Below are positions 5,017 to 13,759 of a DNA stretch of 46,225 nt, piece by piece. The notes below the pieces were generated by a model. That model made no database searches, had not been told where the DNA came from, and saw nothing but the letters and a program-made list of their open reading frames with translations. Source of the DNA: Oscillospiraceae bacterium (GTDB taxonomy: Bacteria > Bacillota > Clostridia > Oscillospirales > Oscillospiraceae); the NCBI GenBank assembly GCA_902767915.1, contig CACXJE010000015.1, forward strand, positions 1 to 46,225, given 5' to 3'. Both the position numbers and the translations under genes were made by a program. Numbering within the stretch: position 1 is the first letter of the stretch; every line of letters begins with the position of its first letter.

Positions 5017-6087
5017 ATGGAAGAAAAGCTTGCACTGATCGAAAATAAATACGAGGAGCTCTGCGCCCGCTCCGAGCAGCCGGATTTCTACGCGGATCCG
5101 AAGCTGGCAGCAAAGTACCTGAAGGAGCAGCGGGAGCTGGAGCCCGTGGTTACGGCCTTCCGGGCCTGGAAAAAGGCAAAGGCCGACATGGCAGAGGCTC
5201 TGGAGCTCATGGGCGAGGAGCCGGAGATGAAGGACTTCCTGCAGGCGGAGTACCAGGCTGCCAAGCAGGACATGGAGGCGCTGGAGGACCGGCTCCGCAT
5301 CCTGCTGCTGCCCAAGGACCCCAACGACGACAAGAACGTCATCGTGGAAATCCGCGGCGGCGTGGGCGGCGAGGAAAGCGCCCTCTTTGCCCACAGTCTG
5401 TTTCGGATGTACTCCATGTACGCCGCCTCCAAGGGCTGGCAGCTGGAGCTTTTGAACTACAACGAAACCGAGCTGGGGGGCGTCAAGGAGGCGGACTTTC
5501 TGATTTCCGGTGAGGGCGCTTTCTCCCGGATGAAGTTTGAGTCCGGCGTCCACCGGGTCCAGCGGGTGCCGGAGACCGAATCCGGCGGCCGGATCCACAC
5601 CTCCACCGCCACGGTGGCGGTGCTGCCGGAAATGGAGGCAGCTGAGGTGGACATCCGCCCCGAGGACATTGAGATGCAGGTCTACCGCTCCTCCGGCGCC
5701 GGCGGCCAGCACATCAACAAGACCTCCTCTGCGGTCCGGCTGATCCACAAGCCCACGGGCATTGTGGTGGCCTGCCAGGAGGAGCGTTCCCAGTTCCAGA
5801 ACCGGGAAAAGGCCATGAATATGCTGGCCTCCAAGCTCTATGAGATCGAGCAGGAGAAGCGGGACGCCCAGGTTTCCGGTACCCGGAAAAGCCAGGTAGG
5901 CATGGGCATGCGGAACGAAAAGATCCGCACCTACAACTTTCCCCAGGACCGGGTCACCGATCACCGGATCGGGTTGACCCAGCACAACATTGAGAGCTTT
6001 ATGGACGGGGATCTGGACAGCATGATCGACGCCCTGACCAACGCGGCCCAGGCGGAGCGCCTCCGCGCCGGAGGCACGGAGGAATGA
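5017..6087 (+). CDS. prfA: Peptide chain release factor 1
   Basis: Recognises UAA and UAG in the ribosomal A site and triggers peptidyl-tRNA hydrolysis. The 356-residue length is standard. The catalytic GGQ is at residues 229-231 within SSGAGGQHINKT. The codon-recognition tripeptide (PxT) is PET at about 185-187, and GGVGGEESALFA is typical of RF1. The C-terminus has DHRIGLTQHNIESFMDGDLD. The start ATG at 5017 has AGGAG nine bases upstream. No prmC methylase gene follows. The TGA stop is formed by the first ATGAAGT unit of the downstream palindrome array, so the repeat abuts or overlaps the gene end. Confidence 0.96.
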   Translation: MEEKLALIENKYEELCARSEQPDFYADPKLAAKYLKEQRELEPVVTAFRAWKKAKADMAEALELMGEEPEMKDFLQAEYQAAKQDMEALEDRLRILLLPKDPNDDKNVIVEIRGGVGGEESALFAHSLFRMYSMYAASKGWQLELLNYNETELGGVKEADFLISGEGAFSRMKFESGVHRVQRVPETESGGRIHTSTATVAVLPEMEAAEVDIRPEDIEMQVYRSSGAGGQHINKTSSAVRLIHKPTGIVVACQEERSQFQNREKAMNMLASKLYEIEQEKRDAQVSGTRKSQVGMGMRNEKIRTYNFPQDRVTDHRIGLTQHNIESFMDGDLDSMIDALTNAAQAERLRAGGTEE

Positions 6088-6317
6088 AGTATGCTGCGCA
6101 TATGAAGTATACTTGCCGCTGACGCGGCTTCGTATATGAAGGCCGCTTCGCGGATGAAGTATGGCCTGCAGCCATATTGCGGTTTTTTCTTCTTTCATCG
6201 TTTTATTCGAAGAATTAAACGATACCTCCATATGCGCATTGCGCATACTTCATATCGGTGTAAGCCGATACTTCATCTGCGCAGCAGACTTCATATCGCC
6301 GCAAGGCGATACTTCAT
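6084..6317. repeat. Array of heptamers (ATGAAGT / ACTTCAT) separated by small palindromes
   Basis: Left half: ATGAAGT or ATGAAGG at 6084, 6102, 6136 and 6154. Right half: exact ACTTCAT at 6247, 6270, 6288 and 6311, with degenerate copies at 6192 and 6224. The heptamers of the two halves are reverse complements. Each spacer is itself a hairpin of unrelated sequence, for example CCGCttcgCGG, ATGGC-ctgca-GCCAT, ATCGG-tgtaag-CCGAT, CTGC-gca-GCAG and ATCGCC-gcaa-GGCGAT; the centre (6198-6224) is ATCGTTT...AAACGAT. The whole is a large inverted repeat decorated with hairpins. It lies between prfA and tsaC and contains no gene. Confidence 0.85.
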
Positions 6318-6332
6318 CCGATTGGAGGCCTT

Positions 6333-7409
6333 ATGACAACGCAACTGCTTACAACAACCGAACACGACCTGAACGCCGCTGCCGCCATCATACGTTCCGG
6401 CGGTCTGGTGGCCATTCCCACAGAGACGGTCTATGGTCTCGGCGCCGACGGGTTGAATCCGGAGGCGGTGAAGAAGATCTTCCTGGCCAAGGGCCGGCCC
6501 CAGGACAATCCGCTGATTCTGCACATCCACGATGCGGTCCAGCTGCGGGACTTCTGCCGGGACATCCCCGACAGCGCCTGGCTGCTGGCAAAAACCTACT
6601 GGCCCGGGCCCCTGACCATGGTGCTTCCCGTGCGGGACGTGGTTCCGAAAACCACCACCGCCGGACTGGACACCGTAGCGGTTCGCTGCCCGGACAACGC
6701 CGCCACCCGGGAGATCATTAGGCTGGCAGGCGTCCCGATCGCGGCACCCTCCGCCAACACCTCCGGCAAGCCCTCCACCACCACAGCCCAGCACGTTCTG
6801 CACGACATGGACGGAAAAATCGACGCCATTGTGGACGGAGGTCCCTGTCGGGTGGGAGTGGAATCCACCATTGTGGATCTGACCGGCCCTGTGCCGCGGC
6901 TGCTGCGGCCCGGCGGGATCACCCCCGAGGAGCTGGAGGCCCTGCTGGGCGGTCTCATCATCGACAAGGCCGTCACCGGGGAAATCTCCAACGACACGGT
7001 GGTTCGCGCCCCAGGCATGAAATACAAGCACTATGCGCCGGCGGCGGAGGTACTGATCATTGACGGCAGCCGGGAGGCCGCCGCCAGGTACATCCGGCAG
7101 CGGTTTCAGCCCGGGGACGCGGTGCTCTGCTTCTCCGAGGAGCTGGACCTTTACGCCGGCTGCAGCCCCACCGCCTACGGGGCAGAGGCGGAGCCCTCCA
7201 CTCTCTCCGCCGGTCTGTTTGCCGCCCTGCGGAAGCTGGACGACGGCTCGGTGAAACGGATCTTTGCCCGCTGCCCCACCGGCGGCGGCATCAACGTGGC
7301 CACCCGGAACCGGCTGCGGAAAAGCGCCGGGTTCCATATCATAGACGCAGGAGCTTCCGAAGCGCCTGCAGGGACAAGCATCGCTTGTCCGAATCATTCC
7401 GAAATCTGA
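6333..7409 (+). CDS. L-threonylcarbamoyladenylate synthase (Sua5/TsaC family)
   Basis: Makes threonylcarbamoyl-AMP from threonine, bicarbonate and ATP for the t6A37 modification of ANN-decoding tRNAs. At 358 residues it is the two-domain Sua5 form: a YrdC-like catalytic domain (about 10-200) with IPTETVYGLGAD, KGRPQDNPLI and SANTSGKPS, then a linker ending MKYKHYAP, and the Sua5 C-terminal domain. GTNVATRNRLRK-like ending (GGGINVATRNRLRKSA) is where relatives usually finish. The start ATG at 6333 has TTGGAGG upstream and begins 15 bases after the palindrome array. Oddity: the last ~14 residues and the stop codon come from a palindromic repeat (7367-7439), giving a tail of no family character. 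Confidence 0.93.
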   Translation: MTTQLLTTTEHDLNAAAAIIRSGGLVAIPTETVYGLGADGLNPEAVKKIFLAKGRPQDNPLILHIHDAVQLRDFCRDIPDSAWLLAKTYWPGPLTMVLPVRDVVPKTTTAGLDTVAVRCPDNAATREIIRLAGVPIAAPSANTSGKPSTTTAQHVLHDMDGKIDAIVDGGPCRVGVESTIVDLTGPVPRLLRPGGITPEELEALLGGLIIDKAVTGEISNDTVVRAPGMKYKHYAPAAEVLIIDGSREAAARYIRQRFQPGDAVLCFSEELDLYAGCSPTAYGAEAEPSTLSAGLFAALRKLDDGSVKRIFARCPTGGGINVATRNRLRKSAGFHIIDAGASEAPAGTSIACPNHSEI

Positions 7410-7439
7410 TACAGCGGACAAGCAGTGCTTGTCCCTGCA
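7367..7439. repeat. 73-bp palindromic repeat overlapping the sua5 3' end
   Basis: Outer inverted repeats begin TGCAGGGACAAGC and end GCTTGTCCCTGCA. Each arm is itself a hairpin: GGACAAGC-atc-GCTTGTCC (7372-7390) and GGACAAGC-agt-GCTTGTCC (7416-7434). The sua5 TGA (7407-7409) lies in the middle. The length and design match the element at 4829-4902, suggesting one class of mobile or formerly mobile small repeat. Confidence 0.75.
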
Positions 7440-7456
7440 AAAAAGGGCGGAGTTAC

Positions 7457-8191
7457 ATGTACACCATCGGCATCACCGGACCCTCCGGGGCCGGAAAAAC
7501 CACAGCCCTGCGGGTGCTGGAGGAGATGGGTGGCCGGGTATTCGACTGCGACGCCATCTACCACGAAATGCTGGCTTCTGACGGCGAGCTGCTGGGCCGG
7601 ATCGAGGCCGCCTTTCCCGGTTCCGTAAAAAACTACACGCTGGACCGGAAGGCTCTTGGGGCCCGGGTCTTTGCGGATCCGGAAGGGTTGCAGCGGTTGA
7701 CCGACATCACCCAGCCCCTGGTGGCAAAGCGGGTACTGGAGGAGATCGAAAAAACGGACGCCACCTCATCTGGCGCTTCGCGCCACCTTCCCCGCAAGGG
7801 GAAGACTAATGCCTCGGGCGGGCGGCCAATGGCCGCCCCTACGGTGGAATCTCCGTCACCGTCCCCTGTTGCCCGTTGCCTGTTGCCTGTTGCCTCATTT
7901 GCGGTGATCGACGCCATTGGGCTGTTTGAAAGCGGACTGGGCGCCCGCTGCGACCTGACTGTGGCCGTCGTCGCTGACCCGGAGGTACGGGTCCGGCGGC
8001 TCATAGACCGAGACGGGATCACGGAAGAATACGCCAGATCCCGAATTGCCGCCCAGAAGCCTGCGGAATGGTTTGCCGGGCAGGCGGACATGACCCTGGA
8101 AAATAACGGAAGCGAGGAAGCTTTTGCACAAAAATGTCATTCCGTTTTTATGCAAAGACTCCCTGCGAAACCGACGAAAACAGAACTGTAA
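7457..8191 (+). CDS. coaE: Dephospho-CoA kinase with a 47-residue repeat-derived insertion
   Basis: Phosphorylates the 3'-hydroxyl of dephospho-CoA, the last step of CoA synthesis. The P-loop GPSGAGKTT is at residues 8-16; DCDAIYHEML, the ITQPLV segment and RDGITEEYARSRIAAQ are family-typical. The length is 244 residues, whereas the family usually has about 200. The excess is residues 101-147, placed between the helix ending EEIEKT and the strand FAVIDAIGLFESGL (equivalent to the usual PLLFE strand). Removing it leaves 197 residues. The inserted DNA (about 7757-7897) consists of palindromes and heptamer repeats of intergenic type, yet stays in frame with no stop. The start ATG at 7457 has GGGCGGAG upstream. 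Whether the enzyme is active cannot be judged from sequence. Confidence 0.88.
   Translation: MYTIGITGPSGAGKTTALRVLEEMGGRVFDCDAIYHEMLASDGELLGRIEAAFPGSVKNYTLDRKALGARVFADPEGLQRLTDITQPLVAKRVLEEIEKTDATSSGASRHLPRKGKTNASGGRPMAAPTVESPSPSPVARCLLPVASFAVIDAIGLFESGLGARCDLTVAVVADPEVRVRRLIDRDGITEEYARSRIAAQKPAEWFAGQADMTLENNGSEEAFAQKCHSVFMQRLPAKPTKTEL
7771..7893. repeat. Composite intergenic-type repeats inside coaE
   Basis: Four blocks in series: hairpin TGGCGC-ttc-GCGCCA (7771-7785), hairpin CTTCCCC-gcaa-GGGGAAG (7787-7804), hairpin GGGCGGCC-aat-GGCCGCCC (7820-7838), and four tandem heptamers CTGTTGC/CCGTTGC (7866-7893). Sequences of these types are familiar from intergenic regions of gut Clostridia. Here all lie within a reading frame. 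Confidence 0.8.
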
Positions 8192-12623: not shown

Positions 12624-12639
12624 GTAATAATCCTCCTAA

Positions 12640-12671
12640 TTGTCAATTGTCAACTGTCAATTGTCAATTGT
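12640..12671. repeat. Tandem heptamer repeat TTGTCAA
   Basis: Four consecutive heptamers (TTGTCAA, TTGTCAA, CTGTCAA, TTGTCAA) and a partial fifth fill most of the serC-serA gap and touch the serC stop codon. It is similar in design to the CTGTTGC heptamers inside coaE. Confidence 0.85.
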
Positions 12672-13759
12672 TATTTGTGTTCAGCCTCGAACTTCTTCAG
12701 GCAATCCACCAGGGCCTCGACGCCTTCCTTGGGCATGGCGTTGTAGATGGAGGCCCGCAGACCGCCAACAGACTTGTGGCCCTTCAGGTTCTCAAAGCCG
12801 GCAGCCTTGGTGTAGGCAATGACCTCAGCGTCCAGATCCTTGTCACCGGTGACGAAGGGGATGTTCATCAGGGAGCGGTCCTCCTTGCGGACGGTGCCCA
12901 CAAACATCTTGGACTGATCCAGGAAGTCATAGAAGACCTTGGCCTTGTCGATGTTGATCTTTTCCATGGCCTCCAGGCCGCCGATGGACTTCAGGTACTT
13001 GAAGACCTTGCCGCAGACGTAAATGGCCCAGCAGTTGGGGGTGTTGTACATGGAGCCGTTGTCAGCGTGGGTCTTGTACATCATGTAGATGGGGGTCTTG
13101 GGATCCAGGTCTTCGCGGATCAGGTCCTCACGGATGATCACGATGGCCAGGCCGGCAGGCCCGATGTTCTTCTGCACGCCGCCGTAGATCATGCCGTAGT
13201 CGGACACGTTGCAGGGCTTGGACAGGAACATGGAGCTCTGGTCGGAAACCAGGATGTGGCCCTTGGTGTTGGGCAGCTTGGGCCAGGTGACACCATGGAT
13301 GGTCTCGTTCTCGCAGATATAAACGTAGTCGGTATCCTCGGGGATGTCCAGGTCGGAGCAGTCGGGGATGTAGGAGTAGTTCTTATCCTTGGAGGAGGCG
13401 GCCACGATCACTTCGCCGTATTTCTTGGCTTCCGCAATGGCCTTCTTGGACCAGGCGCCGGTTTCGATGTAGACGGCCTTGCCGTTCTTCATCAGGTTCA
13501 TGGGAATCATGGCGAACTGAAGGGTAGCGCCGCCCTGGATGAACAGGACTTTGTAATTGTCGGGAATCTGCATCAGCTCGCGCAGATCTGCCTCGGCTTC
13601 ATCAATGATCTGCTGGAAGACCTTGGAGCGGTGAGACATTTCCATGACGCACATGCCGCTGCCGCGGTAGTTCATCATCTCATCACGAATCTCTTCCAGA
13701 ACAGGCTCCGGCATAGTTGCGGGACCGGCGGAGAAGTTGTAAGTACGTCCGTATTTCAT
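12671..13759 (-). CDS. serC: Phosphoserine aminotransferase
   Basis: A PLP enzyme that converts 3-phosphohydroxypyruvate and glutamate to phosphoserine and 2-oxoglutarate. The 362-residue length is standard. YNFSAGPATMPEPVL at the N-terminus, FIQGGATLQFAMIPMN, SDQSSMFLS and the GVQKNIGPAGL segment with the PLP lysine all fit class V SerC. The start is the ATG at 13759, with AGGAGG six bases upstream; the longer open frame is leader sequence. It is first in the serC-serA-gdhA operon with a good promoter at 13835-13863. serB is not in the window. Confidence 0.95.
   Translation of the reverse strand: MKYGRTYNFSAGPATMPEPVLEEIRDEMMNYRGSGMCVMEMSHRSKVFQQIIDEAEADLRELMQIPDNYKVLFIQGGATLQFAMIPMNLMKNGKAVYIETGAWSKKAIAEAKKYGEVIVAASSKDKNYSYIPDCSDLDIPEDTDYVYICENETIHGVTWPKLPNTKGHILVSDQSSMFLSKPCNVSDYGMIYGGVQKNIGPAGLAIVIIREDLIREDLDPKTPIYMMYKTHADNGSMYNTPNCWAIYVCGKVFKYLKSIGGLEAMEKINIDKAKVFYDFLDQSKMFVGTVRKEDRSLMNIPFVTGDKDLDAEVIAYTKAAGFENLKGHKSVGGLRASIYNAMPKEGVEALVDCLKKFEAEHK

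Follow-up and report, generated by a model that had tools for sequence, protein, structure and literature searches.

The question raised by this locus is what occupies the gap between prfA and tsaC in an Oscillospiraceae genome, where short inverted heptamers alternate with small hairpins. The window, by which we mean the whole stretch of DNA analysed (46,225 nucleotides of contig CACXJE010000015.1), holds the following features there:

5017–6087, plus strand: prfA (peptide chain release factor 1), upstream host gene (NCBIfam)
6085–6087, plus strand: prfA stop codon TGA, inside the first unit
6084–6317, plus strand: whole gene-less element; the arm with the TATGGC inner hairpin is the 5′ side
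6084–6159, plus strand: 5′ arm, ATGAAG units at 6084, 6102, 6136 and 6154
6090–6101, 6108–6135 (nested hairpin) and 6142–6153, plus strand: 5′ arm hairpin spacers
6160–6176, plus strand: innermost 5′ hairpin, TATGGCCTGCAGCCATA
6197–6223, plus strand: central A+T-rich hairpin, ATCGTTTTATTC..GAATTAAACGAT, a form common to many copies
6231–6247, plus strand: innermost 3′ hairpin, TATGCGCATTGCGCATA
6248–6317, plus strand: 3′ arm, CTTCAT units at 6248, 6271, 6289 and 6312
6254–6270, 6277–6288 and 6295–6311, plus strand: 3′ arm hairpin spacers
6333–7409, plus strand: tsaC/Sua5-type threonylcarbamoyladenylate synthase, downstream host gene (NCBIfam)

Reading 6084–6317 confirmed the layout described in the first-pass annotation, with four ATGAAG units on the left (the one at 6136 followed by G), four exact ACTTCAT units on the right (6247–6253, 6270–6276, 6288–6294 and 6311–6317) and hairpins between them; a degenerate CCTCCAT lies at 6225–6231. 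The spacers are perfect or near-perfect hairpins, and that at 6108–6135 is a hairpin nested in a hairpin. The hairpin at 6160–6176 is akin to a recurrent TATGGC-NNN-GCCATA type, to which, as an anchor, the window copy has no match. The annotation was also right that the first unit carries the prfA stop and that the last unit stops 15 bases short of the tsaC ATG (6333), the element occupying the whole gap. It had denied that this is a CRISPR or a simple tandem repeat, and both denials stand: the repeats are inverted and the spacers palindromic, where a CRISPR array has repeats in one orientation and unrelated, non-palindromic spacers, and a hairpin separates every two units. The fold that it proposed to check, 6080–6335 as RNA, is far beyond shuffled sequences (z = −7.7; 0/200 shuffles as good). 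When the window was scanned for 7-mers with two occurrences inside 60 bp and, over the following 400 bp, two occurrences of the reverse complement inside 60 bp, the element was the sole place found (16 word hits), and the same scan gave hits in 3 of 20 mononucleotide shuffles (1, 1 and 8). Rfam searches of 1501 bp round the element returned nothing at E ≤ 1 except a weak match to a human lncRNA family (0.57) inside prfA, and searches of six loci with elements or S23 genes (see below) returned tRNA only.

Heptamer arrays of other kinds were seen elsewhere in the window. The gene coaE (7385–8191), where the CoaE match falls in two stretches, has an extra in-frame stretch at 7760–7893 with a GTTGCCT heptamer array at 7868–7895 and the palindrome GGGCGGGCGGCCAATGGCCGCCC. 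At 12638–12678 a one-armed TTGTCAA tandem heptamer array, of another family, lies at the boundary of two minus-strand ORFs.

The search for further copies that the first-pass annotation had suggested found them in the window's genome and in relatives of the same genus. ATGAAGT-N10..30-ATGAAGT occurs 45 times in the window's genome, making up some 13 elements and one variant at contig C67 when grouped by eye, which puts the design at about 14 places; the unit TATCGCCTTGCGGCGAT of the window copy is found again in contig C59. With at most one mismatch, the anchor ATGAAGTATGGCNNNGCCATAT was present in 10/23 genomes of the genus. In a draw of 300 genomes from the family, covering 106 genera and including 6 genomes of the window's genus, the exact anchor was limited to that genus and absent from the 105 other genera sampled. 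A scan of named genomes returned 62 stretches, 60 of them from Oscillospiraceae/Clostridia MAGs, and those titles that state a source name cattle duodenum, sheep rumen or buffalo rumen. The two Bacteroidales matches (L156 and L177) were rejected as chance, being single matches in a similar stretch with no arrays. A broader pattern matched 36 of 98 relatives, also outside the genus and mostly with 1–3 matches per genome; its reversed-pattern control is not independent, because ATGAAGTA contains the reversed heptamer. The sole IMG/VR match (L192) was rejected as viral, as it looks like host DNA and its flanks are 92–95% identical to L184/L116 of G006; a contig labelled viral by IMG/VR is thus apparently host chromosome carrying this element. 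The resulting set comprised 92 elements in 39 flank clusters, with exact duplicates alone removed; one copy is represented by a few truncated repeats. At L181 (4837–5427) one arm and its inner spacer form a tandem repeat, and that side has 16 units.

No called gene spans any of the 92 elements (39 sites). Seventy stand between codirectional genes, 6 between divergent and 5 between convergent genes, and 11 at contig or locus edges, and the preference for codirectional pairs was not significant (67/78 vs. 215/278, p = 0.12). Their orientation follows transcription, the TATGGC arm being upstream in 48 and downstream in 12 of the 70 codirectional cases (10 ambiguous), or 23 vs. 5 by site. They are also sited at stop codons, as the first unit supplies the stop TGA at 27/86 gene 3′-end edges (14 distinct sites), while any other single distance was seen at most 5 times. 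Gene starts are rough in this analysis because the calls came from our own codon-usage script, and the cluster edges of L037, L160 and L162 enter a gene through a chance coding ATGAAG. The ATGAAG arms give stops in three frames reading inwards in 90/150 cases against 1 outwards because the unit contains TGA; inward three-frame stops as a general rule were dropped, the arrays round S23 genes being 15 inwards and 18 outwards of 38. At the prfA-tsaC site itself, the same family is present in G005, G006, G007, G011 and G021, with a divergent copy in G010. Other inverted-repeat families, recognised by eye, fill the site in G001, G002, G003, G009, G013 and G022, and the gap is just 2–26 bp in G004, G008, G012, G015, G017, G019 and G020. 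G014 gave no tsaC match in this comparison, and G016 and G018 are left out of the grouping.

The claim that structure rather than sequence is maintained in the spacers held in part. Among 477 distinct-context spacers from the fetched loci, mostly of 11, 12, 14, 15, 16 or 17 nt, 367 are palindromic at no fewer than 60% of positions. In 62 of the 69 distinct 17-nt spacers one middle pair is kept as GC, CG, TA or AT (shuffle mean 21.8, maximum 33), and across spacer classes 12 to 17 the middle pairs vary between GC, CG, TA and some AT yet still pair, far above shuffles. The closing C-G and outer TA/AT pairs are less variable, and the loops are variable. The stems therefore vary and stay complementary, as claimed, but orthologues mostly differ by whole units: of 59 index-paired units in orthologous copies, 38 differ in length, 18 differ at equal length and 3 are identical, and the changed stem pairs comprise only 5 double changes that preserve pairing and 9 single changes by which a pair is lost or gained. 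As most orthologous hairpins differ by length and double changes are few, the palindromes appear to be kept by whole-unit turnover and not by stepwise compensation alone. The excess of G.U over A.C on the transcript strand was not significant (38 vs. 26, p = 0.17). The hairpins had also been called private to each spacer, which is so within the window copy only; the same hairpin types recur across the family.

The two arms are complementary to each other, and predicted folding lets them pair as a long stem with side hairpins, as the first-pass annotation envisaged for the RNA. Enforcing the heptamer rungs of such a ladder cost a mean of 4.6 kcal/mol relative to the optimum, and keeping the arms apart cost 22 (59 elements); the ladder was within 10 kcal of the minimum free energy in 50/59. 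For the window copy the energies were −101.7 free, −86.8 as a ladder and −74.9 with the arms apart. The longest exact arm-arm duplex was 8–14 bp (63 elements). In 67 parsed elements there were 83 hairpin types in one arm and 114 in the other, with 2 shared; since permuted arms share a mean of 0.12, these nearly disjoint sets are a property of the arm types and not of single elements.

Within one element (L047, in G005) lies an ORF with matches to Pfam 23S_rRNA_IVP (E = 4e-26) and PDB 2rld, whose homologue in G004 matches TIGR02436; we refer to such genes as S23, for the 23S-rRNA intervening-sequence protein. An S23 gene lies in hairpin-laced ATGAAG arms between infB and rbfA in G004, G005, G006, G008 (in an ATGAAGC form), G011 and G016:

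infB-rbfA, S23-bearing ATGAAG loci: L047, L118, L206, L217, L276 and L283

Four of these six passed an automated test for flanking inverted 7-mers, and L206 and L283 were judged by eye; at the same site G000 has a gene-less element. PF05635 gave 74 matches in 16/23 genomes of the genus, of which 54 were looked at, one (L205) being too short for the 7-mer test. Inverted 7-mers flanked 20/29 and 15/24, together 35/53, of these S23 genes (20/31 distinct loci), a count that includes L047 and L118, which were found through their elements, and leaves 18/53 that failed. Control genes had them in 1/70 cases away from elements and 6/58 near elements (by locus, S23 vs. the 1/70 controls gives Fisher p = 2e-12). 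Round the first 30 genus S23 genes there were 38 strong arrays, every one of period 7; a strong array of any period was present in 4/63 control windows, and in 2 of these the period was 7. Counting loci with a called neighbour, the S23 strand was that of the upstream gene in 28/28 cases and that of the downstream gene in 25/27 (30 loci, not all independent).

In the rest of the phylum 9/28 S23 loci passed the strict test for inverted 7-mers, and the wider claim is therefore based on a looser period scan, in which a period-7 array lay within 450 bp of S23 in 23/29 loci, new ones among the matches listed from 35 genomes with a match, and in 11/116 control windows. On plasmids (14 regions chosen from 30 records, 12 of the 14 cyanobacterial) such an array lay within 250 bp of S23 in 9/14 regions and in 5/112 control windows. 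Some S23 genes are surrounded by arrays whose period is neither 7 nor 14 but 11 (L238 and L240) or 8 (L263). Other hairpin-laced heptamer families with S23, identified by eye, are of the TATAACT, ACATCACT and ATCTTAACTT types, and on the S23 tree the laced state forms clusters (5 changes vs. 12.3 when shuffled, 0/500 as low), near-copies contributing to this. The window's genome, 78% complete, has four S23 genes, all with other arms and none with ATGAAGT arms, and no S23 match was found in phages. A reverse transcriptase was not found in G000 or G011, and as a partner it was rejected, being present in 13/23 genus genomes with no clear link. On the cyanobacterial plasmids L257, L260 and L261, S23 lies between cas6/cas4 or cas10/cmr3 with repeat arrays adjoining, and a 23S rRNA IVP label in a CRISPR figure legend (PMC10910872) may reflect S23 insertions among cas genes. 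S23 is sometimes antisense to its neighbours on cyanobacterial plasmids, which is a poor fit to a strictly sense-RNA life.

Signs of movement were sought in the copies themselves. Within G005, copies whose flanks are unrelated reach 94% identity, and 23 orthologous element pairs were 78–100% identical. When 11 of these 23 were binned (identities are computed without gaps, and several lack whole units), seven pairs from species with clearly diverged flanking genes had elements 98.9–99.6% identical at aligned bases and bins 40–300 bp away of 67–96%; the four others were at 84–87%:

Near-identical orthologous pairs: L153/L135, L163/L175, L138/L181, L117/L139, L044/L184, L141/L180 and L166/L119

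Whole-unit differences, with gaps of 22–65 bases, occur in several of the seven. Judged on these alignments, the seven pairs look like the outcome of recent exchange, or of homing to a shared site, and their near-identity could alternatively come from repeats merged in metagenome assembly. A clean empty site with a target duplication was not found, and short unoccupied spacers exist.

Copies of the element are dispersed, its sub-type is restricted to the genus in the samples searched, and versions that bear S23 have arms of the same kind. We think it probable that the window copy belongs, as a gene-less and non-autonomous form, to a class of small mobile elements that occupy intergenic sites, live at the RNA level and move with the aid of S23. 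The full form of this class would be an S23 gene (23S-rRNA-IVP, a four-helix bundle) between two inverted arrays of a family-specific heptamer. Inverted arrays of one heptamer stand on both sides of the window copy, which has no S23, and the six infB-rbfA relatives have S23 between the arms. In the window's sub-type a short hairpin stands between successive heptamers. Its persistence as a folded insertion in mRNA and each step of movement, S23 help included, we infer as follows. The element would persist as an RNA-level insertion within operon mRNA, where translation would stop at the heptamers and the next gene would restart from its own ribosome-binding site. The arms would pair into a ladder of 7-bp rungs with a hairpin at each junction, a structure comparable to the 23S intervening-sequence stem. 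The unlike hairpins of the two arms would let the ends find each other without a long perfect duplex. The structured RNA, or the matching single-strand DNA, may then be copied with S23 acting in trans, perhaps in concert with a reverse transcriptase of the host, in the manner of Avd, to which S23 is related in fold. S23-bearing versions would supply this RNA-type adaptor and gene-less copies would ride along. An insertion tolerated at the RNA level, with a logic akin to that of 23S intervening sequences, is the best supported mechanism.

Several other explanations were weighed. Mutation without selection is possible but not likely, and it can act on top of the mobile-element reading; here the hairpins would stay perfect because one arm is copied from the other by slippage between units and by template switching in quasi-palindromes. 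Whole-unit turnover between orthologues, the tandemly repeated arm in L181 and the non-significant G.U excess agree with it, yet heptamer constancy, the opposite arms, their orientation and the S23 gene are left unexplained. A cis-regulatory RNA useful to the host is rather improbable; it would act between cistrons as an attenuator, a stabiliser or a site of processing, and selection in operons like prfA-tsaC would keep its structure. The strong fold, the orientation bias, the kept pairing and the occupation of several orthologous sites across species would suit it; however, 2–26 bp suffices at prfA-tsaC in seven relatives and other inverted-repeat families, judged by eye, fill it in six, and the elements stand at 39 different sites with similar copies in unrelated places.

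The S23 association could also be passive, the arrays being products of intergenic slippage that S23 tolerates or settles in. Arrays without S23 are indeed common, and 18/53 genus and 19/28 other S23 genes fail the strict inverted 7-mer test, but the arrays are inverted on two sides with period 7 dominant (38/38), the link with S23 recurs in other families and phyla, and hairpin-laced arms cluster on the S23 tree (5 vs. 12.3 changes), making a passive association quite improbable. Least probable of all, and very doubtful, is the idea that a Y1 (RAYT) transposase spreads these palindromes as repeats of REP/BIME type. In its favour, the palindromes are small, intergenic and arranged in mosaic arrays, and Y1 matches occur in 12/23 genus genomes, the window's included, but the element carriers G002, G006, G007 and G011 (drafts) have no Y1 match, at least four ATGAAG/CTTCAT units cluster at only 2 of the 20 Y1 loci examined (L086 and L090; fetched stretch), and the arms enclose another gene, S23.

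Beyond the probable assignment of the window copy to a mobile S23-heptamer class lies a broader proposal, which we put forward tentatively and at somewhat less than even chances. S23/four-helix-bundle genes across bacterial phyla may supply the protein component of a single class of mobile elements that are RNA-borne and bounded by inverted heptamer arrays. The 23S intervening sequences would be its rRNA-dwelling branch and heptamer repeats its footprints; gene-less copies would home into intercistronic sites, S23 would read the heptamer as structure, and lacing would keep the arms pairable but never in a long duplex. To our knowledge, no function has been assigned to S23/IVP proteins in the decades since they became known, and bacterial heptamer repeats are without an explanation; the pairing of the two in the window's phylum, Cyanobacteriota and others makes both puzzles testable. 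If true, this would be a mobile element with stop codons within operons as its exact landing sites, and such elements may explain S23 genes found between unrelated genes, for example cas genes. A link between S23 and heptamers was not found in the open-access literature searched, which lacks most subscription papers, and a class joining the two appears undescribed, judging from the searches made.

The first-pass annotation knew no named class with this design, which is nearly right, although the design has kin in the heptamer-bounded S23 elements and, more distantly, in the intervening sequences of 23S rRNA. The STRR sequences of cyanobacteria are tandem heptamer repeats in intergenic positions; uninterrupted head-to-tail heptamers of that type are not seen in the window element and do occur in sister S23 families. 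MITEs, Correia-type elements and BIME/REP sequences are short and intergenic, with inverted ends and gene-less dispersed copies. The window element resembles them in all of this, but neither a transposase partner nor a target duplication was found, and S23 is the gene found in the arms. REP/BIME sequences with RAYT have a GTAG or CGTC tag at one palindrome end, according to the abstract of PMC3733652. The TAACTGA repeats of Beggiatoaceae and others are likewise intergenic heptamers, and in the accessible sections of PMC4679880 forward repeats give stops in all frames and overlap ORF ends; there, however, they are direct repeats, sets in the BOGUAY table being almost never inverted (1/170), whereas here the arms are inverted with hairpin spacers, and those sections do not mention S23. 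Homology between S23 and Avd is noted in the part of PMC10053308 available, and an S23 model (L190) matched Avd (4dwl) with TM 0.76/0.85 and a Foldseek E of 0.21; unlike the diversity-generating retroelements that use Avd, the element has no template or variable repeats and no RT. A further likeness is to 23S intervening sequences, which have complementary ends forming a long stem, an ORF of the S23 family (in many, not all) and host-transcript orientation, and are considered selfish. That of Coxiella burnetii, as described in PMC4990558, bears S23, has a 28-bp terminal stem that RNase III cuts in vitro, and carries three tandem heptamers before S23, so that there too tandem heptamers adjoin the gene. 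The window element is predicted to form such a terminal stem from its complementary ends; it differs in lying between the protein genes prfA and tsaC and not in 23S rRNA, in having no ORF, and in its hairpin-laced heptamer arms and many dispersed copies.
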